Assembly (NCBI GenBank): GCA_963576725.1
Contig: OY755242.1
Coordinates: forward strand, 5,436,240 to 5,500,239
Reading direction: 5' to 3'
Origin: Azorinus chamasolen
Taxonomy: Eukaryota; Mollusca; Bivalvia; Cardiida; Solecurtidae
Length of the DNA stretch: 64,000 nt
Position 1 is the stretch's first letter, and each line of letters begins with the position of its first letter. The notes beneath the pieces were generated by a model. That model searched no databases, was not told the DNA's origin, and worked only from the letters and a program-made list of their open reading frames with translations. A program made the translations under genes and the position numbers. Shown in pieces: positions 557 through 64,000 of the stretch.

Positions 557-1291
557 ATGCTTATAAAGCTTTTTAGTTGAGTCTGAGTTCGTTCTCAAGC
601 TTTTGATTGGTCAGATTTGAGTTCTCAAGCTTTTGATTGGTCAGATTTGAGCCAGAGGGTAGTACTCTATGATGGTATACTCTTAAACTTGGATACAGGA
701 GGAGCTTACCAGACTCATGTATTATTTTTTCCCTGTCGTGCCCTTAACGGCTTACCTGCAGGTGCTCTGACTTCAGCAAAGTCATTGAGTACATATTTGA
801 CGGATTGTCACAGTTATTATGCTATGTTTTACATGTTGTCCTGTGTTCACCGTCGTCTATGTTGTGGGTAAGTCCAGCGGGGATACCTTTATTTACAATA
901 TTTGTAAAGCTAGGGTGACTTTGAGAGAAGTGTGAGGTTAGGACGTCCGTAAACCGGTTTAAACCCCCAGTGGTGTTTTTGCTGCTGTCCGTGCCAAGGC
1001 GGTACTCTCTTTGTCACCCTTCCTTTTGTTTGCATTGCGTCTTTGTGCTTGTGGTTTGTTCATGTTGTGGAACGTTTGTCCCTGGTTCTTGTGTGTCTTT
1101 TGGTGTTTTCTGTGTTCATTTCGTGTGTGTGCGTGTGCGTTTGGGTGTGTGGTTGTGTGTGTGTGTGTGTGTGTCATGCTGTCTATCGGTGTTTTGGTGG
1201 TGGTTGCGTCTTGCATGTGGCTTTGCCTGCTTGACTTTACTACTTTTCCATTGAGAACGAACTCAGACTCAACTAAAAGTTTTATAAGCAT
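557..1291. mobile_element. Palindromic MITE (TGCTTATAAA family), interrupted by a Naiad fragment
   Basis: Arms read CCATGCTTATAAAG then GAGTCTGAGTTCGTTCTCAAGC and a TTGATTGGTCAGATTTGAG motif, with the inverse at the other end. The right arm is cut short by the insert 659-1250. The uninterrupted partner is 9873-10039. Confidence 0.75.
659..1250 (+). mobile_element. Naiad 3'-region fragment inserted in a palindromic MITE
   Basis: The fragment begins just past the RT stop codon and holds only 3' untranslated sequence, including a GT microsatellite near 1125-1175. It ends at the same terminal sequence (ACTTTACTACTTTTCC) as the related copy whose end lies near 23294 on the other strand. The second duplicated unit lacks it and has 23 bp of MITE arm (9975-9997) in its place, so the insertion replaced a little target DNA. 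Open frames here (for example 617-871) are not genes. Confidence 0.8.
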
Positions 1292-2589: not shown

Positions 2590-4680
2590 CTCTGATCATG
2601 TTGAAACGCAGGTATGCCCTCTTTTCCAAGTCGGAATCCAGTACAAAGTAGAAAGTGTATGTTGTTTTATGTTCGGACCAGACTTAAAATTATTGCACAT
2701 TTTTACATGTTCTGAGACTATATCTTTTTCAGGTGTTGGAACTGTTATATAAGTTTGTGAATCAGTTAGCTCCTTCTTTAAAACATCAACATAATACAAT
2801 CTTCAAATAATGATTACATTATTTGATGCCTTGTCAGCAGGAACAAGAACATAATTTGAATGAAAATTAGACATGTTTTTTCTTCAAATAGCGAAATGTA
2901 ACTCTAGGTCAAGGTGGTAATTTGATTTGTAAAAGGTAATACGCGTATCAATAATATCAAAAATACATTTCTTCCAATCCGAAAGGACATTAACATCAGC
3001 ATGTTCTCGTCGACACCATTTGATGCAGAATTCTTGAATAGCTTCCGCAATATGAGTTCGACAAGCGTCAAAATCATTATTATATTTATAACAGATGATA
3101 GGTGATTCAGAGTTGATGAAATATTTGGGAATAGTATCGATTACATTCTTATCACGAAATATACTTTGAATATCAATAAAATCGATACCTTTATTTAGGA
3201 ATTGAAGTTTCAGAAAATGTATTTTATGTTCAGATTCTTTATCAATACAAGGAGGAAGAACATGATTTGTGTAACTTTGTATAAGTGAGGCAGTATTAAT
3301 TAACGTATCTGTACGCATATGTATTTTATCAGCCTCTTCGTCTATGGATTTGAGACAGGAAAAGGGTAAAGACGATAAACAAGATAATATAGAATGTTTG
3401 TCAGTTTGTTTTAGAATGGTATGTAAATCATGAATAGATATATTACGACGTAATTTACGTTTAATATTACCATTACACGTCTACCATGTGATCTACTTTT
3501 ACGTTTTCGAATAGAAAATATAGAGAAAATATCGATGCTTGGATCTTTAGAAATGTTGCCGCTTTGGAAAATGTTACCATTAAGGCCTAAAGGAAAAGGT
3601 GTTTGTAACTTCTTTAGTCAGTCTAGCTCTGTGATAAAACGAGCTTTAGATTTTAAACTGCTAATAGTTTTAGCATCATAATAAATTTGTTCCACTGGTT
3701 GAACCGAAACATATTTGAAAGAATGTCCTGTATGACGAAAATGCTGGTAAAGAAAATTGCGTACTTTTTTTATCCGGCAATGGTAACTGTGTTCACGAAA
3801 CCTAGTTTTTTAAAGTACGTCCTGTCTGACCTACATATTGAATGCCACAGCGTGGCGCGTTTCATGTAAGAACATATATAATATTAGATGAGTTTCAGTC
3901 TAAATCAGAATTAATCTTCACACTAAACACTCTACCATTAACAAGAGATTTAATTGTTGATCTGGTAGAAATAAAATTGCAACACATACACCTCTTACTA
4001 TTGCACTTAGTAATAATTGGATACACCCTATGTCTTTTGTTCAAATAATGTGAATTTAGATGGGCTTTACTATAACGAAGGATAGACTGCTTTAAAGGAG
4101 ACAGAACGATTTTTGGTCCATTATGAAAAATGTTACTAATAGCAGAAGAGAGCACATGAAAAGACGAAGCAGAAGGCACTTTTAGAGGTTTAATACAAAC
4201 TGACGGCTGTAGTGATTGGAAATTAGCCAGGTTATGAGGAATCTGAACAGAAGACACAGAGTGTAAGTTTAAGTTTGTAATTTTAAGTATAGGGAGATTA
4301 TTCATAATTTATGTAGTAATTGTAGCACCCTTCCGTAAAAAGCGACATACATTTGTAACGAAAAGAAAAGTTATGTAAAGAATAAAAACATACCAGAGGT
4401 TACGATAAAAAATAATAAAGACTAAGGATATGAAGGAAAACGTTGAATGGGTAAGAAGTAAGAAAAACGAGTAAGGTAAAGTCACACTAGAGAAAACGCA
4501 AAGGGCACAAATCTTAAAAGGGACATTAAAATAGTCACACAATATGTCGGTGAGTACCGAAGCCACCATGAAGTGCAATGAACGGTGTTAAGGTATGAGG
4601 AAACGCATTGAATGTAGAGCAATTCCTGCAAGAGGAAGAAAACAATATAGATTGAGCAATAAATTGACATTTACCCATGT
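2590..4680 (-). pseudogene. Decayed Naiad fragment, unit-1 copy (N-terminus, endonuclease, start of RT)
   Basis: On the minus strand, 4305-3895 encodes the Cys-rich N-terminus (KRCMCC motif) and is clearly homologous to 60208-59765. It is followed by the GIY-YIG segment (QYVGQTGR near 3840), now frameshifted by an extra A near 3810. Then come the linker (3318-2884) and the LYWIP start of the RT, where homology fades near 2590. The region around the CxC motif is deleted. TGA codons at 3862-3864 and 2803-2805 match the first and third TGA of the full element. A further TGA at 3895-3897 stands where the full element has Cys137. Leader sequence extends to about 4680. Confidence 0.82.
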
Positions 4681-4733
4681 GTAATAAGTCTACATGCGTC
4701 AGTATGGTTTCCATAGGTACTTGGTATTTTATA

Positions 4734-4757: not shown

Positions 4758-4868
4758 CACGCTCTCGGTGCATGTGGACAGAATATTGAAAAACGGGAAA
4801 GCGCAGTTCACGCATTCAAACAGCAAAAACACAGTAAAGAAAATACTTGTGCGAATACCTCTATTGGA

Positions 4869-5297
4869 ATGAGTAAACTTACAGTGGAAAGCGAAGCCAT
4901 GCCACAGGAGGGTTCAAGAAAGATTCTGATGTCCGGTCGAGTGTTTCTTTGTTGCAAGGTGGCGCCAACAGAATTTAAGAAAACACCGATGTATATGTCA
5001 GCTATCAGCGGACCCAACGAGCATTTCTGTTCTCTATTCAGGGACTCAGAATTCAAATATGGACTTGGAAATGTTAATTTGAAGAACTGTGCGGTTTTGA
5101 AAATGAATACAAATGAAATGCAATTTCAAGTTCGTTTACACACATCTGAGAACACAGGACTGTTGTTCGAGGCTTTATCAAAAGAAGACACTGAGTTGTG
5201 GATACAGGCACTGCACCCAAGAATTCTCACCAACTCCCCGGCGGTGTCATTCACACGCGCAGTGTGTCGTTTTAGGCTGGAAGAGGACGATAAATGA
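4869..5297 (+). CDS. Small intronless PH-like domain protein, unit-1 copy
   Basis: The ORF has 142 codons. An open frame extends upstream to 4677, but a TATA box at 4752-4757 puts transcription start near 4780, so ATG 4869 is the likely first useful start. The product is acidic at its end (LEEDDK) with no signal peptide or membrane segment, so cytosolic. The middle reads like a pleckstrin-homology fold: an opening strand (SGRVFLCCKV), several alternating beta-type strands, and a closing helix with the usual Trp (SKEDTELWIQALHP). PH domains bind phosphoinositides or proteins; no ligand can be named. A possible AATAAA signal is at 5417-5422. It is 97.9 percent identical in DNA to 14182-14610. 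Seven of the nine differences change the protein, but both frames are intact. Family assignment is by pattern only. Confidence 0.6.
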   Translation: MSKLTVESEAMPQEGSRKILMSGRVFLCCKVAPTEFKKTPMYMSAISGPNEHFCSLFRDSEFKYGLGNVNLKNCAVLKMNTNEMQFQVRLHTSENTGLLFEALSKEDTELWIQALHPRILTNSPAVSFTRAVCRFRLEEDDK

Positions 5298-5309
5298 TCA
5301 CATGGTCAT

Positions 5310-6078
5310 CATTGTGAGAAAAATAAGATTAACTATAATTTTCGACAAGTGGGCTCTGGTTGCTTAGGAACTCATCTGACTTACGAATTGACTCTACAGT
5401 TTCATAAGAAACATTGAATAAACCGGGAACTGAATCATTCAGCATGTCAGACATTGAGTAGACAGAATTTGAACATTTCAGACTGCTGAACGTTCTGGGT
5501 GGTGTTCTGGTGTTGTTACGCTCGCTTAGCAATACGAATCTAACGGATTTTACCCATTTCTGCTAAATCTCGTATTTGCAGATGTTTCATTGATTTCCGA
5601 TTCGATCAAACTCTTGACCGGGTGTCAAACAGCTTGCAGAAAACAGGTCCCGATGAGACATCGACTAGTTTGATTACAACTGTTAGTACCAGTCAAGACG
5701 CGCTTAGCGTGAGATTGGTTAATGCCGTCAATGTGTATTAAGTGATTTCTTTAAAGAGGTTCTACGTTACATTATGTCACCAATGCATTTATAAACAAAT
5801 GTTGAACATGATCGCACGCCACGTCAGATACAAGCTGCATGATCTAGACATATGACCTTTGTGTAGAAGCTTAATATCATGCCAGAATTGCGTGGTAATA
5901 TATGTTTGTAGATAGTGTACATTGTATGTAAATATTTATTTTATTAAATAACTAAAATACATTGAGGATGTTTTGTATTATTAAATGACAAATGAATAAA
6001 ACAAACTCACTCAACCGATGCAAAATCTTGATTTCGCATACATTCACCCCTTTTCGTGCTTTTCCTGACCTACCATGC
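5310..6078. other. Spacer downstream of the unit-1 PH-like gene
   Basis: Up to 5509 it matches unit 2 and includes the candidate poly(A) signal. From 5510 it is specific to unit 1. A weak piece of the GATGAGACGCCGAG hairpin family lies near 5585-5700. No gene is seen. Confidence 0.5.
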
Positions 6079-7047
6079 AAGTACAAAAATGAGTCATGCA
6101 GGAAACACCACATACAGAACAAACACTCGCCCGAACAGCAACACAAGGAAACAGCAAATGTACATAGGTAGAAAAAACAACAAGAGACGCACAAAGACAA
6201 AACAAACATACAATAGGAGGAAGATGGAAGTACCGCCTTGGAACGGTCAGTGACAAAAGTCACCGGGGGTTTAAACCGGTTTATGGGCGCCCAACCTCAC
6301 CCTTATTCCATCCCCATCCTAAAAGACAAACAGTGTAAATAAACGTATCCCCTCTCCGACTAATCTACAACAACCGCGACAGCAAATACAGTGGTAAAGT
6401 GCATGTATAACAAAAAAACATTTTATTGAAAATACTGTATCCACCTATCGCTATTGTACTCAATGATTGAGCTGCAAACAGAGTAACTGTAGAAAAGTAA
6501 TAAAGGGTACGACAAAAATGAAATAGTACAGATATCCGACGTTCTCCTTCCATTTCTGGATTTAAGAGGTCGCCTTCATAGAGTACTAAACCTTTCTTGT
6601 CGGCGTACATGCAAAGAGGCCAGCGTGATTGCCAACTGTAAAAGGGTTCACAACCAAACATGCAGTATGTTGTAGTAATACAGGATCATATCCCTTTTTA
6701 ATGAATTGTTTTATATATTTGATGAACAAAGTGAGAAAATGGGTATGTCCAATAATTTTACGAAGTTTGTAAATCACATCACCATAAAATTCCGGATGTG
6801 AAATACCGTGTCGCAAAAGTACCTTGAGATTACATTTGTACTTGCCAATAAGCGAGAGATTTCGATAGTAAAATTTAGAGAAAGTTTTTCTTAGTTTATG
6901 GTATCTATATCCTTGTTTAAGCAGTTTATCAGTTAAAATGAGATTTCGACTGTTAAAATCGTCAATAGATGAACAAGCTCTAGCAAAACGCATAAGTTGA
7001 GATATATAAACCCCGTAAGATGGAGCACGGGGAACATCCCCGTCAAG
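6079..7047 (-). mobile_element. 5'-truncated Naiad copy (3' region and RT C-terminus)
   Basis: This segment is nearly identical to 56514-57474. It carries the last 135 codons of the RT ORF (6993-6586) and the whole 3' region, then stops abruptly at 7047, where homology to the full element ends. Truncation at the 5' end with an intact 3' end is the signature of target-primed reverse transcription. The copy lies inside the 2.27 kb segment that is present in the first duplicated unit and absent from the second. Confidence 0.85.
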
Positions 7048-8022
7048 TCCAAACAGTCAGACGCCTCGTCACGAGCTAAGATTTGATACTTGGTCAATAA
7101 GTTATTTCTCAGAATCTTAACATTTTACTCCATGAATATTCACGTTATAAATTATGACGGCATGAATAATATTTAGGTTATTTTTGAAAATGGGATATTA
7201 ACACGTGATGTTTTCTACAGAGATTTATATAATTCCATACACAAAGCATATGCTGAAGGAGCCGTCTGATCTGGGTCATCCCTATATGCAAAAGGCGTAG
7301 AAAGTGGTGTATATGGAGTCAATGGTTAAACGCATTGAAACAAATAAATTAGTACAGATTGCAACTGAAGCTGGCATTTTCATTTTATAACTCGCACTTG
7401 CTTTTTCATGCATTTCACCTCTAAGTTCGGAGAATTACCTGTAAAAGGAGGGAAAATTAAATGTGATGAAAAGTAACTTATGCTCTGAATGTGTTCGTTT
7501 GCGTTATACCAATAACAAACGAGTTAATTTTGGGTTACGTAACAAGCGACCATTTGCTTCTAGCCATAGTACCTCAGTTGCATAAAAATTAGTCAAGTGT
7601 ATTCCCGGCCTTTTGAATAAGGTGATGTGATTAAATCAGTCTATATTTAGATTATATGTTCTACAAATGCCATTCGTACCAAACCAGTTAATTAATAAAT
7701 ACATTAATATATGTTCACCCTCCAAGTCCGATGTGCACGATCAATGACGGTCTAGATAAAATGACCTGATTCTGGATTCACACATCTGACCAGAAAAAAT
7801 ATCAAACAAACAGCAGCCAATCAGAAAAAATCGGATAACAGATTACTATACTGATATTCACAAAAGAGGTTCCGTGAGGTAGAGCTCGTCGAATGCTCCC
7901 ATTGAAACCGTGCTTTCCTGTTTCAATTAATTAACTAGTAAATATACAGTTCGGGAAGTCTCGTTGTGCCAATGTGAAGAATGTATAGGTTCATGTGACT
8001 AATAGAGATATTCCAGTTTTAC
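7048..8022. other. Spacer with no gene
   Basis: AT-rich sequence. From 7775 it is the duplicated sequence matching 14827 onward. No convincing ORF, only weak MITE traces. Confidence 0.5.
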
Positions 8023-8258
8023 TCTTTACTCCATAAACACGCATTTCTACGCAGTTGTAAACAGTGTAGATCCCAATCAGACGGCTCCTATTGGAACCGT
8101 CTGATCTGGGTCTGCTCTGTTTCCTTATGGTAAAATACAGTTTCTGCCTTGGTCAAAATGGCTTGTGCTCCTGTGTCTACCTGCTAGTATAACAATTAAT
8201 ATAATTGTTATTCATGGTGTCATTATTTCTTACATGAATATTCATGGAGTGAAGGGTT
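8023..8258. mobile_element. piggyBac-like MITE with a central TCAGACGGCTCC hairpin, unit 1
   Basis: The hairpin (8084-8110 region) reads AATCAGACGGCTCC and inverse, inside AAACAGTGTAGATCC/TCTGCTCTGTTT arms. The right end is TCATGGAGTGAAGGGTTAA. The left end is decayed. The unit-2 partner is about 15061-15308. Confidence 0.6.
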
Positions 8259-8718
8259 AAAACAGTCTCGTGACCCGTAACGTCATTGTAGCGCTCAATT
8301 TGGAATTGTCACAATTTTCTAAATGGCCGTATCGACCTTATGTTCGAATCGATTTACATGTCTTCTGTACAGCAGTAATGAGACAAACCTGGGAATCATA
8401 TAAACACGTGATAGATTTAATCAAATTGGACATAAATCTGGTCCAGTTTTGAGCTTATTCAGAGATTACCTGTATTTCATGACAGAGCATTGCTCCCAAT
8501 ATTTTTGATTAGATACGCACGTTAAGTCAAACCATTGGGGTAGAAGGTCCTACGAGCATACGCGGAACCGAAGTAAAAAAAATACTCAACAGTATTTCCC
8601 TAGTGTCTCCACAGATGTCTGTGCGCTTGGTTTTCTCCGAACAGCATTGACACCTGCTACATGCTAAATCTGTTAATCCTTAACATGGTAGAAACGCATT
8701 TGCACCCCTTGCAATGCA

Positions 8719-9569: not shown

Positions 9570-9872
9570 ACGGCAGTGAGTCAAAACATGTTTATATGAG
9601 GGAAGGGTTAATTAATAATAGTGATTGGCATTAAGACATTATTATAACCTGCCCTGCTTGCAACGGATCATACACACATCAGACAACACCTGTAGGAGCA
9701 GTCTGGTCAGGGCCTGCTCTGATTGCTATGAAAACATATATGCTGTACAGCTACTGTCATCATAGAAATCATTTATTCATTATTCCATTATAAATACTCG
9801 TATACAATCATTACTTCTCACATGAATATCCATGAGGAAAAGGGTTAACAGCGATTTAATCAATCTGTGTCC

Positions 9873-10039
9873 ATGCTTATAAAGCTTTTTAGTTGAGTCT
9901 GAGTTCGTTCTCAAGCTTTTGATTGGTCAGATTTGAGTTCTCAAGCTTTTGATTGGTCAGATTTGAGCCAGAGGCTCAAATCTGACCAATCAAAAACTTG
10001 AGAACGAACTCAGACTCAACTAAAAGTTTTATAAGCATG
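9873..10039. mobile_element. Palindromic MITE, TGCTTATAAA family, intact
   Basis: Uninterrupted partner of the MITE at 557-1291, with both arms present. The left arm has an internal ~27 bp duplication. Confidence 0.75.
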
Positions 10040-11039
10040 AACCCAGGCGTGTAATCCGTTGTTGTCCCAGGAATATTCGTGAAAGAAATTATAAAATCAT
10101 GAATACTGCTTAGATTAATTTATAAGCATACTTTGAACTTTTAAGTATTGAAAAAGCTGAAACAACAGAATCAGATCTACATCATTCTATAAGCAATCCG
10201 AGCTCCTTACCGACCTTTTATCTCGGTCGACATGTATTCTGTTTGCAATAGCGTAGAAAGACGTATATATGGAACAAAGGGATACGAATTAATGCTACCA
10301 AGTTCGAGTTCAAAGGACACGATCAGACCTATCTAAAATTGCGTTCATTCCGAATACGAAGTCACTCATATATATACGCTATCGAAACTATAACTTAATG
10401 TTTAGAGTGATCTGCAACAATATTATTAATGAATGTCTCTTGATATATGTATATAAACTGGTATCATTATAACACAATTTTAGAAAACCGTTATTATATA
10501 TGTAGCATAATTATTTTGTTTCACCCTTTAAACAGAGGATAAACGACACTGAACAAATAATCTCCTAGATCATTTCACCTTTTATGTACAAGTTCAGTAC
10601 ATCATGGTCCAGAGTCCATGGATTTGTTTTCACAGTGGTTCGTTTTTCTTATATAATTCGGTCGAATGCGGGTGCTGTATCATTACTGTGTAAATAGCCA
10701 GAAACAGTTACTATATAGTATACTATCCGTCCCGAGAGACAGGACGATTTTCCTAACTAGTCTACGCTTTACGTTTTTCTCGTATATCCAATAGTGTCTG
10801 TTGGGGCGAACTACACTGGGACCCAGTCATGAGTTAAGTAAGCGCGTCCAATTGCAACCATTCAAATGATTTGATAGTCCTAGGTAAAGGCCATAACGGC
10901 TAATAGTGTAATAATAGAAGTATTGTTTTATTACGGGTAAATATTCTAATATTTAACCAACGAGTCATTAATTACATTAGCAAACAGTGTAGATCTCCAC
11001 GCCACGAGGACTCATACAGGCGCCATCTCACCAGGGTCC

Positions 11040-11205
11040 ATGCTTATAAAACGTTTAGCTGAGTCTGAGTTCGTTCTCAAGGTTTTGATTGGTCAGATTT
11101 GAGCATTTGGCTCAAATCTGACCAATCAAAAGCTTGAGAACTCAAATCTGACCAATCAAAAGCTTGAGAACGAAACTCAGACTCAACTAAAAGCTTTATA
11201 AGCAT
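11040..11205. mobile_element. Palindromic MITE, TGCTTATAAA family
   Basis: Partner of 2293-2435. Its right arm carries an extra tandem copy of the GATTGGTCAGATTTGAG-type module, as the left arm of 9873-10039 does. Confidence 0.7.
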
Positions 11206-11359
11206 AGACCCAGGTTCTGTCGTTTGTCTGGTTACACTGTTTCTTTACAAATATTCCTAATTATTGACGGTAAGCCTGGTCTGTTTTGTGTTTTGTAACA
11301 ATGCATTTGACAATTCAGTGCTGAAAGGGTTGATAATGTTGTACCGTGTGTTAATATCG

Positions 11360-13701
11360 CTCTGATCATGTTGAAACGCAGGTATGCCCTCTTTTCCAAG
11401 TCGGAATCCAGTACAAAGTAGAAAGTTTATGTTGTTTTATGTTAGGACCAGACTTAAAATTATTGCACATTTTTACATGTTCTGAGACTATATCTTTTTC
11501 AGGTGTTGGAACTGTTATATAAGTTTGTGAATCAGTTAGCTCCTTCTTTAAAACATCAACATAATACAATCTTCAAATAATGATTACATTATTTGATGCC
11601 TTGTCAGCAGGAACAAGAACATAATTTGAATGAGAATTAGACATGTTTTTTCTTCAAATAGCGAAATGTAACTCTAGGTCAAGGTGGTAAAAGATGGTAA
11701 TTTGATTTGTAAAAGGTAATACGCGTATCAATAATATCAAAAATACATTTCTTACAATCCGAAAGGGCATTAACATCAGCATGTTCTCGTCGACACCATT
11801 TGATGCAGAATTCTTGAATAGCTTCCGCAATATGAGTTCGACAAGCGCCATAATCATTATTATATTTATAACAGGTGATAGGTAATTCAGAGTTGATGAA
11901 ATATTTGGGAATAGTATCGATTACATTCTTATCACGAAATATACTTTGAATATCAATAAAATCGATACCTTTATTTAGGAATTGAAGTTTCAGAAAATGT
12001 TTCTTATGTTCAGATTCTTTATCAATACGAGGAGGAAGAACATTCTGTGTGTAACTTTGTATAAGTGAAGCAGTATTAATTAACGGATCTGTGAAGCAGT
12101 ACAGTAAAACCTCTCTTAACCGGTAGTTAAATTTAGTATGAATATCGGTCTTGGAGACAGGTGGCAACTTAATGCAGGGTGAAAGTCATGCAGAAAGCTC
12201 CTAGAGGAGCTTTCTGCATGACTTTCACCCTGCATTAAGCAGCCACCTGCCTAAAAGTATCTAAATTATTATCTACTAGAAATCCAGTTAAGAGAGGTTA
12301 TACTGTATTAATTAACGGATCTGTACGCATATATATTTTATCAGCCTCTTCGTCTATGGATTTGAGACAGGAAAAGGGTAAAGACGATAAACAAGATAAC
12401 ATAGAATGTTTGCCAGTTTGTTTTAGAATGGTATGTAAGTCATGAATAGACATACTACGACGTAATTTACGCTTAATATTACCATTTCTACGTCTACCAT
12501 GTGATCTACTTTTACGTTTTCGAATAGAACATATAGAGAAAATATCGATGTTTGGATCTTTAAAAATGTTGCCGCTTTGGAAAATGTTATCATTAAGGCC
12601 TAAAGGAAAAGGTGTTTGTAACTTCTTTAGCCAGTCTAGCTCTGTGATAAAACGAGCTTTAGATTTTAAACTGCTAGTAGTTTTAGCATCATAATAAAGT
12701 TGTTCCACTGGTTGAACCGAAACATATTTGAAAGAATGTCCTGTATGACGAAAATACTGGTAAAGAAAATTGCGTACTTTTTTGATCCGGCAATGGTAAC
12801 TGTGTTCACGAAACCTAGTTTTTTAAAGTACGTCCTGTCTGACCTACATATTGAATGCCACAGCGTGGCGCGTTTCATGTAAGAACATATATAATATTAG
12901 ATGAGTATCAGTCTAAATCAGAATTAATATTCACACTAAACACTCTACCGTTAACAAGAAATTTAATTGTTGATCTAGTAGAAATGAAATTGCAACACAT
13001 ACACCTCTTACTATTGCACTTAGCAATAATTGGATACACCCTATGTCTTTTGTTCAAATAATGTGAATTTAGATGGGCTTTACTATAACGAAGGATAGAC
13101 TGCTTTAAAGGAGACTGGACGATTTTTGGTCCATTATGAAAAATGTTACTAATAGCAGAAGAGGGAACATGAAAAGACGAAGCAGAAGACAATTTTAGAG
13201 GTTAAATACAAACTGACGGCTGTAGTAATTGGAAATTAGCCAGGTTATGAGGAATCTGAACAGAAGACACAGAGTGTAAGTTTAAGTTTGTAATTTTAAG
13301 TATAGGGAGATTATTCATAATTTATGTAGTAATTGTAGCACCCTTCCGTACAAAGCGACATACATATGTAACGAAAAGACAAGTTATGTAAAGAATAAAA
13401 ACATACCAGAGGTTACGAAAAAAATAATAAAGACTAAGGATATGAAGGAAAACGTTGAATGGGTAAGAAGTAAGAAAAACGAGTAAGGTGAAGTCACACT
13501 AGAGAAAACGCAAAGGGCACAAATCTTAAAAGGGAAATTAAAATAGTCACACAATATGTCGGTGAGTACCGAAGCCACCATGAAGTGCAATGTACGGTGT
13601 TAAGGTATGAGGAAACGCATTGAATGTAGAGCAATTCCTACAAGAGGAAGAAAACAATATAGATTGAGCAATAAATTGACATTTACCCATGTATACTAAA
13701 T
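11360..13701 (-). pseudogene. Decayed Naiad fragment, unit-2 copy
   Basis: This is the duplicated partner of 2590-4680, with the same internal deletion, the same frameshift near the endonuclease Arg and the same TGA codons (12908-12910, 12875-12877, 11573-11575). It decayed before the segment duplicated. A 204 bp pogo-like MITE (12102-12305) later inserted here and is absent from the other unit. 12708-12298 keeps the GIY-YIG C-terminal end (ELDWLKKLQTPFPLGLN). Confidence 0.82.
12102..12305. mobile_element. pogo-like MITE, TA target duplication, unit 2 only
   Basis: Ends CAGTAAAACCTCTCTTAAC and inverse, flanked by TA at 12100-12101 and 12306-12307. It has a central perfect hairpin around GAAAGCTCCTAGAGGAGCTTTC. 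Its absence from unit 1 shows the exact insertion. A 26 bp direct duplication of target sequence (12067-12092) immediately precedes it. Confidence 0.85.
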
Positions 13702-13968
13702 TCTGAAAGGGGGTGATCCCCGAGAGCAAAAATTACAACACAAAAAGAGAAAATTGCAGACTCGGTTTTATTGAGTCTGTTCATGAACAGTAATTGAAAG
13801 TGCAACACTGCTCAGGCCCCTAGCACCGGCTTAAGCGGTATTCAATTTTTAGAACAAGAAGTACTGAAATTCATGACCTCGAAGGATCAGAAGGTATAAC
13901 AACACTGAGAATGAAGTACAGGGCGACGTTTTACGGCCGCCACACAAGCACTTAACACCTGCTGTTGT
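13702..13968. repeat. ~270 bp interspersed repeat (unit 2 only)
   Basis: Shared with 36553-36830: both contain AAAATTGCAGACTCGG, AGTGCAACACT, CGGCTTAAGC and TTTTACGGCCGCCACAC in the same order. Unit 1 lacks it. Its last ~70 bases resemble the leader of the full Naiad at 60385-60460. Confidence 0.65.
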
Positions 13969-14014
13969 GTCTACATGCGTCAGTATGGTTTCCATTGGTA
14001 CTTGGTATTTTATA

Positions 14015-14038
14015 TACGTCACCTTCAAGATATATAAA
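14015..14038 (+). promoter_or_regulatory. CRE-like and TATA core promoter of the unit-2 PH-like gene
   Basis: TACGTCA at 14015-14021 and TATAAA at 14033-14038, identical in order and spacing to the unit-1 promoter. It starts about 45 bases after the end of the 13702-13968 repeat. Confidence 0.6.
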
Positions 14039-14181
14039 CACGCTCTCTGTGCATGTGGACAGAATATTGAAAAACGGGAAAGCGCAGTTCACGCATTCAA
14101 ACAGCAAAAACACAGTAAAGAAAATAACATACAATAGGAGACATTGACGGTTATATTACTTGTGCGAATACCTCTATTGGA

Positions 14182-14610
14182 ATGAGTAAACTTACAGTGG
14201 AAAGCGGAGCCATGTCACAGGAGGGTTCAAGAAAGATTCTGATGTCCGGTCGAGTGTTTCTTTGTTGCAAGGTGACGCCAACAGAATTCAAGAAAACACC
14301 GATGTATATGTCAGTTATCAGCGGACCCAACGAGCATTTCTGTTCTCTATTCAGGGACTCAGAATTCAAATATGGACTTGGAAATGTTCATTTGAAGAAC
14401 TGTGCGGTTTTGAAAATGAATACAAATGAAAAGCAATTTCAAGTTCGTTTACACACATCTGAGAACACAGGACTGTTATTCGAGGCTTTATCAAAAGAAG
14501 ACGCTGAGTTGTGGATACAGGCACTGCACCCAAGAATTCTCACCAACTCCCCGGCGGTGTCATTCACACGCGCAGTGTGTCGTTTTAGGCTGGAAGAGGA
14601 CGATAAATGA
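14182..14610 (+). CDS. Small intronless PH-like domain protein, unit-2 copy
   Basis: Paralogue of the ORF at 4869-5297, with 142 codons and no indels. Replacements relative to it include E9G, P12S, A33T, A46V, N75H, M87K and T113A (approximate numbering). Silent changes are only two. Its promoter is conserved (TACGTCA at 14015-14021, TATAAA at 14033-14038), but the leader has about 30 extra bases near 14130-14160. A 267 bp repeat (13702-13968) has been inserted just upstream of the promoter. A candidate AATAAA lies at 14734-14739. Function is unknown; the closing-helix Trp of the PH-like fold is kept. Confidence 0.6.
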   Translation: MSKLTVESGAMSQEGSRKILMSGRVFLCCKVTPTEFKKTPMYMSVISGPNEHFCSLFRDSEFKYGLGNVHLKNCAVLKMNTNEKQFQVRLHTSENTGLLFEALSKEDAELWIQALHPRILTNSPAVSFTRAVCRFRLEEDDK

Positions 14611-15928
14611 TCATAATTATGGTCATCATTCTGAGAAAAATAAGATTAACTATAATTTTCGACAAGTGGGCTCTGGTTGCTTAGGAACTCATCTGACTTA
14701 CGAATTGACTCTACAGTTTCATAAGAAACATTGAATAAACCGGGAACTGAAACATTCAGCATGTAAGAGATTGAGTAGACAGAATTTGAAAAATTCAGAA
14801 TGCTGAACGTTCTGGGTGGTGTTCTGTATTCACACATCTGATCAGAACAAATATCAAACAAACAGCAGCCAATCAGAACAACAGATTACTATACTGATAT
14901 TCACAAAAGAGGTTCCGTGAGGTAGAGCTCGTCATATGCTCCCATTGAAACCGTGCTTTCCTGTTTCAATTAACTAAGTAAATATACAGTTCGGGAAGTC
15001 TCGTTGTGCCAATGTCAAGAATGTATAGGTCCATGTGACTAATAGAGATATTCCAGTTTTACTCTTTACTCCATAAACACGCATTTCTACGCAGTTGTAA
15101 ACAGTGTAGATCCTAATCAGACGGCTTCTATTGGAACCGTCTGATCGGGGTCTGCTCTGTTTCCTTATGGTAAAATACAGTTTCTGCCTTGATCAAAATT
15201 GCTTGTGTTCCTGTGTCTACCTGCTAGTATAACAATTAATATGATTGAGATTCATGGTGTCATTATTTCATTATTTATTACATGAATATTCATGGAGTGA
15301 ATGGTTAAAACAGTCTCGTGACCCGTAACGTCATTGTAGCGCTCAATTTGGAATTGTCACAATTTTCTAAATGGCCGTATCGTCCTTATGTCCGAATCGA
15401 TTTACATGTCTTCTGTACAGCAGTAATGAGACAACCCTGGGAATCATATAAACACGTGATAGATTTAATCAAATTGGACATAAATCTGGTCCAGTTTTGA
15501 GCTTATTCAGAGATTACCTGTATTTCATGACAGAGCATTGCCCCCAAAAATTTTGATTAGATACGCACATTTTGTCAAACCATTGGGGTAGAAGGTCCTA
15601 CGAGCATACGCGGAACCGAAGTAAAAAAAAACTCATCAGTATACAATCATTACTTCTCTGCCATTTAATCAATCAGGCGTGTAACAGGAACAAATGCTCT
15701 ATTTATCACAATGGTTTCCAACTACAAAATTCTAAAATTTTACCTTTCTCTAGTAAATGCTCCTTTTGGGTATATTCATTCAAAGAGGTTTGGTCTAAAA
15801 ATAGGCTATGGAGGAAAGGGTTAATATGCTTTAAAATTATACTGACTTTTTCTGTAAAACCTGTACATTCTCATCTGTTTGCTTGTGCATGCGTCAAAAT
15901 GGGGTAAATGGGTACACGACATCCTATC

Positions 15929-23402: not shown

Positions 23403-24331
23403 CATACCAACCAATACCTGAAACTCATTACATTGTGTATAACACCGGAAAGTTACTACACGTACTTCTAAAACAGATATAGTAACAATGACAGTATGAA
23501 ACAGCCTTAATAGCATGCCGTGCGGTTCAAATGTTGAGAATTCTTAAAAATAAGAATGTGGTTTTAACCGTGAGTCACTACATCTGTCACGTGACCATAT
23601 TGGCGCACCCCGGAGACCACACACCTAAACACACACTCACACACGAGATGAACACAGAAAACACCAACAGACACACAAGAACTAGAGACAAAAACTCCAC
23701 ACATGAACAAAATCACAAGCACAAAGACGTAAGGCAAACAAAAGAAAGGGTGACAAAGAGAGTACCGCCTTGGCACGGTCAGTAGCAAAACACCACTGGG
23801 GGTTTAAACCGGTTTACGGAAGTCCTAACCTCACACTTCTCTCAAAGTCACCCTAGCTTTACAAATAGTGTAAATAAAGGTATCCCCGCCGGACTTCCCC
23901 AAAACATAGACGACGGTGAACACAGGATAACATGTAAAACATGGCATAATAACCGTGACAATCCGTCAAATATGTACTCAAGGACTTTGCTGAAGTCAGA
24001 GCACCTGCAGGGAAGCCGTTAAGGGCACGACAGGGTAAACGTAATACAGAGTCTGGTAAGCTCATCCCGTATCCGAGTTTAAGAGTATACCATCATAGAG
24101 TACTACCCTCGGCCTGTCATCGCGCCAGCAAAGAGGGAAGCGTAGCTACCGACTGTAAAAGGGTCGATAACCAAAACATGCAGTGCGCTGCAATATAATG
24201 GGATCATAACCTTTCTTCTTAAATGTTTTAATGCGTTTTATAAACAAATCATGAAAACGGATATAACCCCAAATTTTCAGAAGTTTGTAGTTAACATCCC
24301 CATAAAAGTCTGGTTGAGAAATGCCTTAATA
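23294..24331 (-). mobile_element. 5'-truncated Naiad copy of a second subfamily, with an internal 220 bp insertion
   Basis: Minus-strand homology covers the RT C-terminus (about 24331-24090, degraded) and the 3' region, down to the terminal sequence shared with 659-1250. About 220 bp at 23405-23622, beside a CGCA/CA microsatellite, has no counterpart in the other copy and is a later insertion or a diverged segment. It lies in the first visible intron of the MAM-lectin gene, antisense to it. Confidence 0.75.
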
Positions 24332-24739
24332 GTTATCATGATTTATAACGTACTACAATCGCAAATTGCAGTTGCGATCATCGTACATTAAACCTTGCGA
24401 AACTTTGATTGTTACGACGGTTCCCTTGGTCTTATATAGGTCTACTCTATTTGCAAAACCGCCATAAGACGTACCTTTGAGATATATGGTAAAACAAGTT
24501 GCTCGTACTTCATTCTCAGAGTTATTCTATTTTCTGATCCTTCATCAATTTCAATGCTTTTTATTATGGAAATTGAATACTGATTAAGCCGGAGCTGTTT
24601 GACACACCGAAATTGTCGTTGAAAGAAATGGAAGCAAGTCTGCTTCGATATCTGACCTAGAAGACAAAACTTTGTTCAGTATGGCTAAAGTTAACCATTT
24701 CCATCTTGTAGACGCCTATTTATGCATTTGCAAACTGAG
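24332..24739. other. Intron 1 spacer with no gene
   Basis: No coding signal. Weak trace of a family A hairpin half near 24425-24460. Confidence 0.45.
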
Positions 24740-56078: not shown

Positions 56079-56513
56079 AGATCAACATTAAGTAATTTCC
56101 ATGTAACAAATAGGTATAGGATTTAATCTTTATACCGCTATGAGCGACTTGGCTCGTACTTGCAAACATCTTGCATCCACATGAGACACTTCAGGATCCA
56201 AGTTTATATGCTTCAAATTCGAAACAGCGTTTAAAATGTTTGTATGTTGCTAGTGCACCGCTACTATCGATATTCTCATCTCAAACTTGTATAAAACCAT
56301 CCACCAATCTTTATTTAGATATTTTTTGAAATGATTTCGGTTTTACAATTTTTGGATCCCTCCAAACATCAGCAAAACCATTATTTACTAGTAATGCTTA
56401 AATATGTGTAACCAACGTACAAAATGAGTCATGTCCGAAACACTACATACAGGACAAACAGCCACACGAACAGCAACACAAGGAATCAGCAAATGTACAT
56501 AACTATAAAAGTA

Positions 56514-59500
56514 CAAAAATGAGTCATGCAGGAAATACCACATACAGAACAAACACTCGCCCGAACAGCAACACAAGGAAACAGCAAATGTACATGGGTA
56601 GAAAAAACAACAAGAGACGCACAAAGACAAAACAAACATTCAATAGGAGGAAGATGGAAGTACCGCCTTGGAACGGTCAGTGACAAAAGTCACCGGGGGT
56701 TTAAACCGGTTTATGGGCGCCCAACCTCACCCTTATTCCATCCCCATCCTAAAAGACAAACAGTGTAAATAAACGTATCCCCTCTCCGACTAATCTACAA
56801 CAACCGCGACAGCAAATACAGTGGTAAAGTGCATGTATAACAAAAAAAACATTTAATTGAACATACTGTATCCACCTATCGCTAGTGTACTCAATGATTG
56901 AGCTGCAAACAGAGTAACTGTAGAAAAGTAATAAAGGGTACGACAAAAATGAAATAGTACAGATATCCGACGTTCTCCTTCCATTTCTGGATTTAAGAGG
57001 TCGCCTTCATAGAGTACTAAACCTTTCTTGTCGGCGTACATGCAAAGAGGCCAGCGTGATTGCCAACTGTAAAAGGGTTCACAACCAAACATGCAGTATG
57101 TTGTAATAATACAGGATCATATCCCTTTTTAATGAATTGTTTTATATATTTGATGAACAAAGTGAGAAAATGGGTATGTCCAATAATTCTACGAAGTTTG
57201 TAAATCACATCACCATAAAATTCAGGATGTGAAATACCGTGTCGCAAAAGTACCTTGAGATTACATTTGTACTTGCCAATAAGCGAGAGATTTCGATAGT
57301 AAAATTTAGAGAAAGTTTTTCTTAGTTTATGGTATCTATATCCTTGTTTAAGCAGTTTTTCAGTTAAAATGAGATTTCGACTGTTAAAATCGTCAATAGA
57401 TGAACAAGCTCTAGCAAAACGAATAAGTTGAGATATATAAACCCCGTAAGATGGAGCACGGGGAACATCCCCGTCAAGATGAGGAAAATTTACAATATTA
57501 AAATCAAAATCATCTCTTTTGTCATATATTTTAGAAGAAATCATTCCATTATTAATTTTAAGGTCTAGGTCAAGAAACGCTGCATAATTGTCGGACGGGT
57601 TAGCTTTATTCAATTTGAGTTCTTTAGGATAAATTGTAGGAATCAGAGCATTAAAGAAAGGGTTATCTAAGTTAAAAATATCATCCAAATATCGACAAGT
57701 ATCATTGAAGGCTTTTATAACATCTTCTTGTGATTGAGGATTCAAACTCAACATGAAATCTCTCTCATAGCAGTACAAAAACAAATCTGCGACAAGTGGT
57801 GCACAATTCGTACCCATGGGAATACCAATTACCTGACGGTATATAGCATTCCCATAACGTACAAATATGTTGTCCAAAAGAAAGGTTAGTGCTTCGCAAA
57901 CTTCTGAGCAAGTCCAATTGGTGTAATACTTCATTTGCTCGTCAGTAAAGAAAGCTTTTTCAGCATTACATGCCAAGAATGATGTTTTTTCTCGGGCAAA
58001 TACTTTCTGGATCAAGTTAGTAAGCTTATCCTTAATTAAAACATGAGGAAGAGTTGTGTACAGAGTAGAAAAATCGTACGTGCTTACAGTGGATGCAAGA
58101 TACCTTTTGTTCTTAAGTTTGTTTAAGACTTCTGAAGAGTTCTTAATAGACCAGAAGAGATTTATTCCAGAATTTTCATAAGTCTTATCACAGTAAAATC
58201 TTAAATGTTCCTTTACCTTCGTTAAGCAAGAAGTCAAAAGTATAGACAATTTAGTAGTTGTACATGAACTAGAATTTGCAATGAAACGCGCTTTATATGG
58301 TTTTTTATGTAGTTTTGGTAACCAATACATAGTAGGAAGTTTATGTTGTGTAATTTTAATATCGGTTCCAAATTGTTCACACTTTTTGACATGGTCTGAA
58401 ATGATGGTCTTTTCGTCAGTGGTAACTGAAATGTATGACTTGGTATTAGTAATTTCCTGCTTCAAGACATCGATATAATGTAATCGTCAAATAATAATCA
58501 CATTATTTGATGCCTTATCAGCAGGAACAAAAACGTATTTTGAATGGAAATCCTGTAAACCCTTTTTAAGATGTCTAAATGAAGTTCTAGGTTTAGGTGG
58601 AAGAAGGTGTTTATTAGAGCTGTAAAAGGAAATGCGTTTATCAATTATATCAAAAATTAGTTTTTTCCAACAAGAAAGGGCAGTAGACTCAACATGTTCT
58701 CTTCGACACCATTTAATACTAAAATTTTGTAAAGCCTCCGCAATCTGAACTCGACAAGAGTTAAAATCTATCAAGGATGGTATTCTATATTTGGGACCTT
58801 TATTCAAAAGAGATCGTAGACGTTTATCTTTAATTATCTCAAAATTACCAGTAATCACATGACCAGCCGGAGAATAGCAAAATTTTGAGGTGGCGCAATC
58901 TCAATTATCAGGAATATTATCATTAATATTAAGGTCGGCCACAATTTTATTGTAGTTGAAAATTGTATTTCTGATGGGTTTGTTATATTTGTAGCAGATG
59001 ATAGGTGGTTCTGTATTTTTAAAGTATTTAGGAATAGTGTCAATTACATTTTTGTCTCTAAAAATACTTTGTAGGTCAATAAAATCAATACCTTTATTAA
59101 TAAAAGGAATTTTCAAGAAGAATCTTTGGTGTTCAGATAATTTGTCGATGTGCGGTCTGAGAACATGTAGAGTAAAGCTTTGTATCAAACTAGCAGTTCC
59201 TATGAGAGGATCTGATCGAAAAATAATTTTATCGGCTTGCTCGTCAATTTCTTTTAATGAACATATAGATAAGGAGGAAAGTCTAGAAAGCATGGCATGT
59301 TTACCCGAAATTAGGCGTAAAGTATGTAGATCAAGAAGAGTCAATTTCAAACGAGATTTTCGTTTAATATTACCATTCTTGCGAATGCCATGCGATCGAG
59401 ATTTGCGTTTTCTAATAGAAAAAATTGAAAAAATATCTATATCTGGTTCTTTTGAAATATTTCCAGTCTGGTAAATATTATCATTCAGTCCTAAAGGAAA

Positions 59501-60790
59501 AGGTGTTTGCAATTTTTTGATCCAATTTAATTCAGATATAAATCTAGCTTTCGATTTAAAGCTACTAGTCGCCTCCTTATCGTATGTTATATGCTCAACA
59601 ATTTGTACTAAAACATCTTTAAAAGAATGGCCAGATTTCCGAAAGTGTTGGTATAAAAAATTGTTTAGTTTACGATTTCGACACTGATATGCATGCTCAC
59701 GAAATCGAGTTTTCAAAGCACGTCCTGTTTGTCCTACGTACTGTATACCGCAACTAGGCGCGTTTCAAGTTAAAACATAAATAACGTTAGTAGTAGTACA
59801 ATCAACGTCTGAGTTTATCTTGACATTAAATGTTCTACCATTAACTGTAGATTTTATAGTGGAATTACAAGAAATGTTACTACAACATATGCACCTCTTA
59901 GCAAAGCACTTTTGGATAATTGGATACACTCTGTGTCGTCTGCATAAGGACCGTTTACGAATAGAAGAAACATTTTGGATAACAGATTTTAAAGGTGAAA
60001 GTACAACTCTTGGTCCATTGAAAAAACATTTATTAATAGAAAGAGATGGTATGTGAAAAGATGAAGCCGACTGAAGATTAAGTTGTTTTAAACGAACAAA
60101 AGGTTGAAGGGAAGAGAAATTAGAAATATTTCTGGGTACTTGTACAGACGACACAGATTGCATATTTAAAGCTTTTAGTTCTATTCGAGGTATTTTAACT
60201 TTATTCATATTGGAAAGTGATAGAGGGGCACCTGTATTGTGTTCAACAACACGTCAATTACATAAGTGTAGCTACCAAGTGCATCAAATTGTTGGTGAAC
60301 ACAACACCTACCACGAGGTGCATGACATACTTATGATGATGTAAGAGGCGAATGAGAGTTGTGTATGTTACTTGCATATCCTGCAAGAGAATGATAACAA
60401 CATCGATTACGTGTACGGGGAGACTTTTTACGGCCACCACACGGCACAAGCAACACTGTTGTGATAATAAAAGTACAAAAATGAGTCATGCAGGAAATAC
60501 CACATACAGAACAAACACTCGCCCGAACAGCAACACAAGGAAACAGCAAATGTACATGGGTAGAAAAAACAACAAGAGACGCACAAAGACAAAACAAACA
60601 TTCAATAGGAGGAAGATGGAAGTACCGCCTTGGAACGGTCAGTGACAAAAGTCACAATCATCAAGAGACGCACAAAGACAAAACAAACATACAATAGGGG
60701 AGATGGAAGTACCGCCTTTGAACGGTCAGTGACAAAAGTCACTGGGGGGGGTTAAACCGGAACTTGGGCGCCCAACCTCACACTTATTCC
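56514..60790 (-). mobile_element. Near-complete Naiad retroelement with pseudo-LTR-like terminal repeats
   Basis: On the minus strand the element runs from a 5' leader (60473-60209) through the ORF to a 3' region (57016-56514). The last part of the 3' region (56514-56695) is repeated almost identically just upstream of the leader at 60474-60655. A further partial, diverged copy follows at 60656-60790. A diverged third copy of the extreme 3' end lies at 56417-56510. Such head-to-tail repeats are the pseudo-LTRs typical of Penelope-like elements. The 3' end is well defined because the truncated copy at 6079-7047 stops at the same base. Confidence 0.82.
57017..60208 (-). CDS. Naiad-type Penelope-like element polyprotein: N-terminal GIY-YIG endonuclease plus reverse transcriptase, read as a selenoprotein
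   Basis: One reading frame runs 1063 codons from ATG (60208) to TAG (57019-57017). Its only interruptions are three TGA codons, at residues 148 (59767-59765), 436 (58903-58901) and 574 (58489-58487). Domains in order: a Cys-rich segment (C101, C106, C108, C109, C114, C137); a GIY-YIG nuclease (VIYVL at 142-146, QYVGQTGR at 156-163, R168, E226); a linker in which the second TGA is the first position of a CxC-type motif; then the RT with YDFSTLYT (711-718), GIPMGTNCAP (795-804) and YLDD (840-843). Endonuclease before RT is the permuted order of Naiad and Chlamys elements; Penelope itself has it C-terminal. Each TGA sits where relatives appear to carry Cys, so selenocysteine is the best reading. 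The product would nick target DNA and reverse-transcribe element RNA. No other frameshift or stop is seen, so the copy may be recent. I found no SECIS element by eye. Confidence 0.88.
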
Positions 60791-60879: not shown

Positions 60880-62720
60880 CTTCAACCAGTATTTAATAAT
60901 TCTAACGATGTATATACATGTACAAGGGATATCGACCCCATGTACAAGGGATATCGACCCATTTCACCATATATATTGTATGTCGATGTACACCTCTTCA
61001 CGTGTAATAACCTCTTAAAAAATTCTAGGTGTACTCGTTCTATTTGTTTAGATTTAGAATGGCCCCATACTTCACAGCTATAATTCAAACTAGAGCTAAC
61101 AAATGCATCAAATAACTGATATGTAACACTATATTTCAGGTTCAAACCGTTAATATTGGCCATGAGTGAATTCAATGATCTCAGCCCTTTGTCAAATATA
61201 AACTCTTGATTTAAAACAAAACTCCCAGTGTAGCTCAAAACCGTCCCAAGATAGTTAAAGTCACTTACTGTTTCTAAACTCTCACCCCGTATGACCAATG
61301 TTCATTTTCATTTAAACGACCCCTTTTACTAAACACCATTACTAATTTTCGAGCAGTTTACTGCTAATCCCCAAATTTCACAGTATTCATTTAATATATC
61401 TCATTTATATTGCAAGTCATGTGACGAGCTACCAAAGACAGCAATGTTATCGAAAAAAATTTAAAATTGCAAGCATAATATCATCTATACTTATTCCTAT
61501 AAGATCTGGATCTGGAAGATTTAACTCTAAATCCTCAAGAAAAAGGGCAAACATTATGGACGAGATTATCTCCCCTTACATGAGTCCAGTATAATTATCA
61601 TATATCTCAGAATAAGTATTTCCCTTTCTAATACATGTCTTGACTTTGTCGTACATATCATTTAAAACACGTACAATTTTACTGTTAAGACCCAGCTTAT
61701 ATAACTTGAACCACAAATAATTCTAATAATAATCGTATTAATCAATCAACACCAGAAGCTGCACAGATATACATACAATGAAAATAATGATTACAACCCA
61801 TTTTCCGACAGGATACATTTGTTCAGTTAAATATGATTGCTATCCAAATACTACAAAATTATTAAAAAGGAGCCTCCTTTTTATAACAGGGATTTTGTAC
61901 GGAAATCAGCGGACGTCTTCGGCCAAGTTCTGATTCCAGCTGATGACGAAGGCTTTTCCGTTGGTTTTTGTAGCAATCCATTTTTTATTTTTTCGACAAA
62001 AACAACCATTTACTGGCCGTGCTGTTTAGCATTAGATAAGTGTTAAGGTACATGGTACATAGATTCCAATTCTGAAGTCAGTTCGAAACGCAAAAATTGC
62101 CGAAATTTGAGCAGCATACATCTTTAAATCGACGAAAGCGCAGTACAAACGTTTATTAGACGTTCAATGGCGTGAAGACTAAACACCGCGTCTACAGTTG
62201 ACCGACCCGATCTAAACCCGAACTGTAGGACATCAACCCCTGCCGCTTTATCTGACTTGCGTTTTTTAACAGCTGCTAGCATTTCTTTAACAGTAATATC
62301 ACAATTAACTTGAATTGAGTCCATCAAAATTGCAATTAGGATTATATCACAATCATGGTTAGAGCAAAACAACCCTGCGTCCTCATTTACAGTTTGTGTA
62401 GAAGAGCCCATCCTTGTTTAAAATAGTTAAAATAAACTCGTCTACGCTTATTTCGTTAGTAGCATATGGCTTCTTCCGGAAGAGCGGCCAAAACTCCTTC
62501 GGCTCAGAATGGCGTAAACATTCATGTTATTAAAATTATTACGCTTACAAGAAATTAATTTCTTGTATGCTATTTTGCTTTCGCATACATGTAATACTAT
62601 TCTATTTTCATGCGATGGCTTACTGTTGTAACTGTGTAAAGCACGGAGGTACACTTTTCTACCGTGTCAGCATTCAGCATCAAACCATTCACTTTTTTTT
62701 AAATCGTCGTCTTTAAAGCG
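60880..62720 (-). pseudogene. Decayed non-LTR retrotransposon (LINE) RT
   Basis: Minus-strand order is correct for a LINE: SEWFDAEC (near 62670), KKLISCKRNNF (near 62560), VKEMLAAVKKRKSDKAAGVD fused by deletion to FGFRSGRSTVDAVFSLH (62300-62160), LWFKLYKLGLNSK and GEIISSIMFALFLEDLE (61720-61530), DNIAVFGSS and CEIWGLAVNC (61450-61350). It ends with FNYLGTVLSYTGSF and YSCEVWGHSKSKQIERVH (61260-61030). The YLG..L block and VWG motif are the post-RT thumb of RTE/CR1-type LINEs. Several stops and frameshifts and an unrelated ~400 bp (61740-62120) show it is dead. Confidence 0.78.
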
Positions 62721-62999: not shown

Positions 63000-64000
63000 T
63001 CATACAACAAGAGGGCCATGAGGCCCTGAAGCGCTCACCTGAGATACACCAAGGACGGGGCCATCATTTGTACAACCTTGGTAGAGAACCACAAGGCAAA
63101 GCAATATGCCATTAATTAAAGGTCTAAGCCTTATGGCTTCAGAGAAAAATAATATATTTTTCCCATGAAAAACTGATAAGCAAGGGCCAAGTTTCGCCCA
63201 GAGGTCATGGTCGTAAGTTGAACAATCTTTGTAGAGGACCATGCTACATGCCAAATATCAAAGGTCTAGGCTTTACAGTTTCAGCGAAGAAGAATGTTAA
63301 AGATTTTCCTATGAAAAACTGATAAGCCCTTGGGCGGGGCCATTTTTGGCCCGGGGTCATAATTTGAACAATCTTTATAGAGGACCATAAGATCATGCTA
63401 CATGCCAAATATCAAAGGTCTATGCCTTACAGTTTCAGAGAAGAAGAATGTTAAAGATTTTCCTATGAAAAACTGATAAGCCCTTGGGCGGGGTCATTTT
63501 TGGCCCGGGGGTCATAATTTGAACAATCGTTGTAGAGGACCATTAGATCATGCTACATGCCAAATATCAAAGGTCTAGGCCTTACAGTTTCAGAGAAGAA
63601 GATTTTTAAAGATTTTCCTATGAAAAACTGATAAGCCCTTGGGCGGGCCATTTTTTGGCCCGGGGGTCATAATTTGAACAATCTTTGTAGAGGACCATAA
63701 GATCATGCTACATGCCAATTATCAAAGGTCTAGGCCTTACAGTTTCAGAGAAGAAGAATGTTAAATATTTTCCAATGAAAAACTGATAAGCCCTTGGGCG
63801 GGGCCATTTTTGGCCCAGGGGTCATAATTTGAACAATCTTTGTAGAGGACCATTAGATCATGGTACATGCCAAATATCAAAGGTCTAGGAGTTACAGTTT
63901 CAGAGAAGAAGATTTTTAAAGATTTTCCAATGAAAAACTGATAAGCCCTGGGGCGGGGCCATTTTTGGCCCGGGGGTTATAATTTGAACAATCTTTGTAG
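63000..64000. repeat. Tandem array of ~155 bp units, runs off the window
   Basis: GATAAGCCCTTGGGCGGGGC recurs near 63322, 63475, 63630, 63786 and 63941, with CATGCCAAATATCAAAGGTC and TTGAACAATCTTTGTAGAGG in each unit. A more diverged unit comes first, headed by ACAAGAGGGCCATGAGGCCC at 63005. Bivalve mobile elements with ~160 bp tandem cores (pearl/BIV160 type) are known. Membership here is only a guess. Confidence 0.85.

Follow-up and report, generated by a model that had tools for sequence, protein, structure and literature searches.

An apparently complete Naiad-type Penelope-like retrotransposon of the bivalve Azorinus chamasolen that very probably encodes a selenoprotein with three in-frame UGA codons

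In eukaryotes, selenocysteine (Sec) decoding relies on a selenocysteine insertion sequence (SECIS) that recruits SBP2, eEFSec and Sec-tRNA, and animal genes of the selenoprotein P type have several UGA codons read via a SECIS in the 3' untranslated region. Among mobile elements, Craig et al. reportedly described in 2021, in Mol Biol Evol, the Naiad group of Penelope-like elements, with Sec-encoding members in clams and spiders. These Naiads are said to combine an N-terminal GIY-YIG endonuclease (EN), a CxC linker and a C-terminal telomerase-related reverse transcriptase (RT) with pseudo-long terminal repeats (pseudo-LTRs) and several in-frame UGAs. This kind of element has been known since 2021; our literature search, which did not cover the 2021 study, turned up no report on Sec-encoding Naiads. 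The CxC linker motif is part of the Naiad definition, and Naiads further show an insertion bias for microsatellites and an insertion-in-fingers domain in the RT; they are not known to carry a canonical hammerhead ribozyme. Here, we analysed a 64,000-nt stretch of A. chamasolen DNA (contig OY755242.1, positions 5,436,240 to 5,500,239; hereafter, the window) and found on its minus strand an apparently complete Naiad-type retrotransposon. Its sequence points to a selenoprotein, UGA codons 148, 436 and 574 being read as Sec via a SECIS, a reading to which we give a probability of about 0.93.

Going by the reported features of that group, this element shares with the Sec-encoding clam and spider Naiads the EN-CxC-RT order, the pseudo-LTRs and the presence of several in-frame UGAs. 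It differs from selenoprotein P in that the product is a mobile-element enzyme, that Sec sites are spread across nuclease, linker and RT, and that a single SECIS overlaps the stop codon. In PMC11167929, the anole element PAc, a canonical Penelope/Poseidon, is described as joining RT and GIY-YIG in one open reading frame (ORF), with the EN at the C-terminus, as forming pseudo-LTR-bearing copies in tandem or partial tandem, and as carrying a hammerhead ribozyme. Compared with PAc, the EN is N-terminal here, and no hammerhead family was among the matches listed in our Rfam scans of the window, at the sensitivity of these scans.

Translation of the minus strand from 60208 to 57017 gave a frame of 1063 codons in which three internal stops, and no more, precede a TAG terminator (Table 1). 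All three internal stops were TGA and there was no frameshift, as claimed in the preliminary description, which had also placed each TGA at a Cys-type position, that is, before the QYVGQTGR block of the nuclease, at the first position of the CxC motif and after PADKASNNVIII. The homologs bore this out. A protein search yielded 348 of them, the best 120 of which were aligned and counted. Among these, Cys was found at site 148 in 44 of the 46 homologs with a residue there, at site 436 in 96/103 and at site 574 in 108/120. The last CxC position, C438, was kept in 103/104, the motif reading UDC (436-438) in the present copy, and a further site, 137, was Cys in 42/42. Trp occurred at 436 in five homologs and at 574 in eight, and these were the only two sites with Trp among the columns with at least 70% Cys. 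This would fit gene calls made under a code in which TGA means Trp, and these Trp residues are presumably TGA; P0013, with Trp at 436, and P0060, with Trp at 574, have it in stretches that look misaligned.

Table 1. Coordinates of the features described in the window
Feature	Position	Strand	Evidence
Single ORF, EN-linker-RT protein, 1063 codons if UGA = Sec, UAG stop	57017..60208	-	translation
UGA codon 148, Sec site directly before nuclease block CGIQYVGQTGR	59765..59767	-	alignment; Cys in 44/46 homologs
UGA codon 436, CxC motif position 1 (stop-D-C)	58901..58903	-	alignment; Cys in 96/103 homologs
UGA codon 574, after PADKASNNVIII	58487..58489	-	alignment; Cys in 108/120 homologs
UAG stop codon, last two bases = first bases of SECIS basal helix	57017..57019	-	translation and Rfam match
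SECIS: basal helix AGUAC/GUACU, AUGA...GGAU core, AAA apical internal loop, mini-stem with GAAA cap	56956..57018	-	Rfam RF00031, folding
GIY-YIG endonuclease domain (approximate, residues 139-235)	59504..59794	-	alignment to Pfam-matching relatives
Telomerase-like RT core (approximate, residues 575-1030), motifs DFSTLYT, IGIPMGTNCAP, RYLDDI	57119..58486	-	alignment, structural model
Upstream pseudo-LTR, divergent extension to ~60793	60467..60655	-	189/189 identical to downstream one
Downstream pseudo-LTR, extension to ~56742	56505..56693	-	identical 189 nt
Copy B: decayed sister subfamily; TGA at 137, 148, 574, also 229, 547; 436 region deleted	2632..4296	-	tblastn
Copy C: decayed, segmental duplicate of B; TGA 137, 148, 574, 539; TAA 41	11402..13309	-	tblastn
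Copy D: 5'-truncated, same element, 98.8% DNA identity, residues 911-1063 and 3' end	6079..7047	-	tblastn (7047-6589), DNA
Copy E: divergent, decayed C-terminal fragment (near 24370-24109) and 3' end	23706..24370	-	tblastn
Fragment F: 3' end of divergent copy, 92% to E	655..1153	+	DNA comparison

The preliminary description gave the frame without a strand, but suggested a SECIS search of the minus strand between 56400 and 57016, which shows that minus was intended. An E-value-threshold Rfam scan of 5.4 kb with 4227 families gave a full-length match to RF00031 (SECIS_1, model positions 1-64) at 57018-56956, with 26 bits and an E-value of 0.079. The final two bases of the UAG open the hairpin, which lies ~1.5 kb downstream of the last UGA. 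The lack of a SECIS in this or sister copies had been named as a result that would speak against a selenoprotein; SECIS_1 matches were found here and at the other three Naiad 3' ends of the window, namely those of D (6587-6525, 26 bits), F (661-723, 23.2 bits) and E (24104-24043, 19.7 bits). When the whole 64 kb was scanned (E ≤10), SECIS_1 had three entries, those of this copy, of D and of F, and none elsewhere, the weakest match, that of E, being absent from the list. Single-sequence folding gave the same overall hairpin in all four 3' ends. Their alignment comprised four sequences, three of them distinct, in which 4 of 18 pairs changed on both sides and still paired; 47 of 54 cells were paired, the seven unpaired ones being six at two positions where none of the three sequences pairs, and one further. 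The covariation score was 0.407, compared with 0.02-0.14 for slid partners, and was reached by 7 of 500 shuffles. Because of its position, its recurrence and these compensatory changes, we assign the hairpin to SECIS despite the 26 bits. Since, in addition, the UGAs occupy fixed cysteine positions and the SECIS signal stands at the stop codon, the enzyme is very probably a selenoprotein.

Structured RNA is able to stimulate read-through, and one could therefore propose that near-cognate tRNAs read the three UGAs in a programmed manner, the hairpin being a read-through stimulator and not a SECIS. However, the SECIS core (AUGA, AAA, GGAU) is present in the hairpin, which sits at the final stop, ~1.5 kb past the last UGA; residues at the UGA sites are nearly invariant Cys in homologs; and three serial inefficient read-throughs would presumably leave very little product. 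We consider this proposal very improbable.

The stop positions were further examined through fragment proteins of relatives. Searches were made with the pieces between stops, residues 149-435 giving 723 relatives, the best 120 of which were used, and residues 1-147 giving 21. Among the matches listed, the closest relative was P0125, 86% identical. The ORF of a fragment protein was taken to end where its alignment did or, if an unaligned tail of at most six residues followed, after that tail. By this measure, 121 of 141 fragment proteins ended just before one of the sites 137, 148, 436 or 574 (last residue 435 in 67, 573 in 37, 136 in nine and 147 in eight), the other 20 having ends elsewhere or longer unaligned tails. 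Trp was seen at both 137 and 148 in P0247 and P0251, and at 436 in P0130, P0234 and P0240. As judged from these proteins, stops recur in the family at no fewer than four positions (137, 148, 436 and 574), of which the present copy uses three.

The element might also be a dead, decayed pseudogene like B and C, with its three TGAs as plain nonsense mutations; B and C lie in the same window and carry TAA, and TGA at non-Cys sites. Yet stops in the present copy occur only at Cys columns, no frameshift is found over 1063 codons, relatives stop at the same sites and a SECIS match is present. Random decay, as the preliminary description had pointed out, would give TAA and TAG too. Indeed, the remaining two frames of the same strand held 59 TGA, 105 TAA and 27 TAG in 2126 codons, and in a one-step mutation count of the sequence, only 29-31% of new stops were TGA, and TGA arising from a Cys codon accounted for 5-7%. 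The probability that three random codons all hit the 15 columns with at least 70% Cys in homologs was 2.3e-6. TAA, TAG or non-Cys sense codons at the three sites in related copies had been put forward as evidence against Sec; B and C carry TGA at 148 and 574, and also at the fourth Cys site, 137, the 436 region being deleted. This deletion is common to B and C, which are not independent, and neither copy had a 3' end that we could find, hence none to scan for SECIS. Given that B and C are decayed, their stops elsewhere are no surprise. That many relatives have stops at these same four sites contradicts the pseudogene explanation, whose likelihood we place lower still than that of read-through.

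Reading beyond the UGAs was also addressed by comparing the present copy with B or C, and the proportions of non-silent (pN) and silent (pS) differences were 0.29-0.31 and 0.64 before codon 148, 0.16-0.22 and 0.78-0.87 for codons 149-435, 0.18-0.28 and 0.47-0.49 for codons 437-573, and 0.24-0.25 and 0.76-0.77 after 574 (57 codons each). B and C being duplicates, these values count as one comparison. After 574, copy E gave a pN of 0.25 and a pS of 0.75, and copy D showed five base differences only. Silent changes were favoured in every segment and, therefore, selection has acted on the protein beyond the first and third UGA since the subfamilies parted.

A generally changed code, in which UGA means Cys or Trp without any Sec, would, for Cys, likewise place UGA at Cys columns, but it is as improbable as a pseudogene in view of the 31 ordinary Cys codons against three UGAs in the frame, of the recurrence, in relatives, of Trp at Cys columns or of ORF ends at the same four columns, and of a SECIS that would be needless and is nonetheless kept with compensatory changes. 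The terminator is not UGA either: it is UAG here, and the alignment of 3' ends shows the same TAG in D, E and F.

Several observations weigh against the selenoprotein reading. All four SECIS_1 scores were below the Rfam curated cut-off of 35, and at the gathering cut-off Rfam gave nothing in the 64-kb window. With three distinct sequences, the shuffle control for covariation was weak: 138 of 500 shuffles reached the percentage of paired cells, 48 the four compensated pairs, and the number of pair types was attained in every one of the 500, so that measures other than the covariation score (138, 48, 48 and 500 of 500) were unremarkable. The hairpin folded moderately better than shuffled sequences, with z from -1.7 to -2.4. 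ORF ends in relatives cannot by themselves separate TGA from TAA or TAG. The extra stops in decayed copies (TGA 229 and 547 in B, TAA 41 and TGA 539 in C, TAG and TAA in E) are unfavourable or neutral. Finally, the upstream pseudo-LTR is partly divergent, and the locus is thus not a textbook fresh tandem insertion.

Assignment to Naiads was made through the features reported for that group, nearly all relatives being unnamed database proteins. The features found were an N-terminal GIY-YIG in one ORF with the RT, a CxC linker, a telomerase-related RT and pseudo-LTRs. Pfam gave no match on the 1063-codon frame itself, and domains were placed through relatives. In those with both domains, GIY-YIG lay near 107-222 and RVT_1 near 625-857. 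In the 24-sequence alignment A1, GIY-YIG was matched in 14 and RVT_1 in 10, and the present copy aligns along its length. A sequence search of the PDB gave one weak match, to the GIY-YIG nuclease 1ln0 (E 0.0052), and no GIY-YIG chain was among the structural matches listed for the whole-protein model, in which the RT dominates. Telomerase matches of this predicted model began at about residue 406-445, and on this model the RT of the element is telomerase-like. Runs of 1-3 nt units between 56001 and 61200 were limited to A8 and G8, as seen at this one copy.

How the Sec sites evolved was approached with a quick-method tree of residues 149-435 (177 rows, long branches flagged). It split, with support 99, into an all-Cys side of 55 rows, with Cys at 436 and 574 wherever a state was read, and a side of 122 rows holding this copy and all rows labelled as stop. 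This label was drawn from ORF ends and stands, row by row, for a stop of any kind. At 436, where ORF ends at 433-437 and Trp were labelled as stop and 11 of the 177 rows, without a state, were left out, the 166 labelled rows call for at least 21 changes between Cys and stop, compared with 45-64 in 200 label shuffles. These labels suggest that the CxC position switches often and not at random. Both states were found among the rows nearest to the present copy, P0125 and P0123 being stop and P0122 Cys. For 574, the tree gave two changes, a count that is biased, as search length limits favour ORFs stopping there (P0003 and P0007 have Cys), and that we did not use as support for 574 being fixed. 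Naiad-like proteins with Cys throughout (P0041, P0050 and P0095, Pinctada imbricata; loci L001-L003) have the same overall alignment at 30-36% identity, with Cys at 436 and 574 (by eye for L001-L003) where UGA stands here. P0041, P0050 and P0095 belong to the all-Cys side of the tree, and L001-L003, three remote loci of 30-32% identity that served as all-Cys controls, had no SECIS match (E ≤10) in at least 850 bases after the match. Four sites, frequent Cys/stop switching in the CxC motif and a SECIS starting in the stop codon may be additions to the reported picture of Naiads. Incidentally, two Naiad-like proteins of the all-Cys part of the tree, P0016 (1303 aa) and P0018 (1326 aa), have an N-terminal GIY-YIG and an extra C-terminal ubiquitin-specific protease domain (PF00443, E 9e-31 and 1e-31, respectively).

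Regarding hosts, a search of genome collections gave six Naiad-like loci (L001-L006), all in bacterial metagenome-assembled genomes (MAGs) and probably eukaryotic contamination. L004, L005 and L006 are Naiad fragments in symbiont-MAG contigs, two from Bathymodiolus symbiont records and one from Thioglobus, and are probably host DNA that was binned as bacterial. The record of P0230, 61% identical, carries the name of a symbiont of the clam Lucinoma myriamae. Because of this record and of the fragments in Bathymodiolus symbiont MAGs, bivalves are likely hosts of the Naiad-type family. IMG/VR scans with the protein, alignment A1 and a SECIS-like DNA pattern found no relative.

The open frame, the complete SECIS match and the two identical 189-nt end repeats suggest that the present copy may be full-length and possibly active. 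Elsewhere in the window, a tandem segmental duplication (1251-5509 plus 7770-8595 versus 9998-15642, larger pieces 93-97% identical) carries B and C, and a 2260-nt insertion (5510-7769) in its left half holds copy D. We looked at this insertion as a possible empty-site pair; it exceeds the Naiad piece in size, and we therefore drew no conclusion from it. Long inverted repeats resembling miniature inverted-repeat transposable elements (2283-2446, 9862-10047 and 11030-11216) lie beside and between B and C, and the many microRNA-family Rfam matches in the window were taken as inverted-repeat hairpins. Immediately 5' of the Naiad element, translations read by eye showed minus-strand ORF pieces resembling fragments of an RT of the long interspersed element type (60885-61301 and 62124-62411), and a satellite array with a 155-nt period (63040-64000) reaches the window end.

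As we picture it, the hairpin starting in the UAG would recruit the host SBP2, eEFSec and Sec-tRNA, and host ribosomes would decode UGA 148, 436 and 574 as Sec. Only full read-through would produce the 1063-residue protein, with an N-terminal cysteine-rich part and GIY-YIG nuclease, a CxC linker and a telomerase-like RT. This protein would make a nick in DNA and use it as the place for copying the element RNA, and copies in tandem or partial tandem, with pseudo-LTRs, would be left behind. Its production would be tied to the selenium status of the host. A tentative extension, which we think unlikely to hold, is that four Cys/Sec sites (137, 148, 436 and 574), the often-flipping 436 and a stop-codon SECIS gate nuclease and RT by selenium supply, and thus form an evolving selenium switch on mobility.

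It is unusual for a mobile element to encode selenoproteins: a parasite would here rely on an expensive host decoding at several sites per protein. Gene finders split such elements at UGAs, and most of the 141 fragment relatives examined are such pieces. With an intact-looking copy, a SECIS and decayed or divergent sisters within 64 kb, the locus would be a test bed for the selenium dependence of retrotransposition, and would equally suit asking why Sec replaces Cys at fixed positions.
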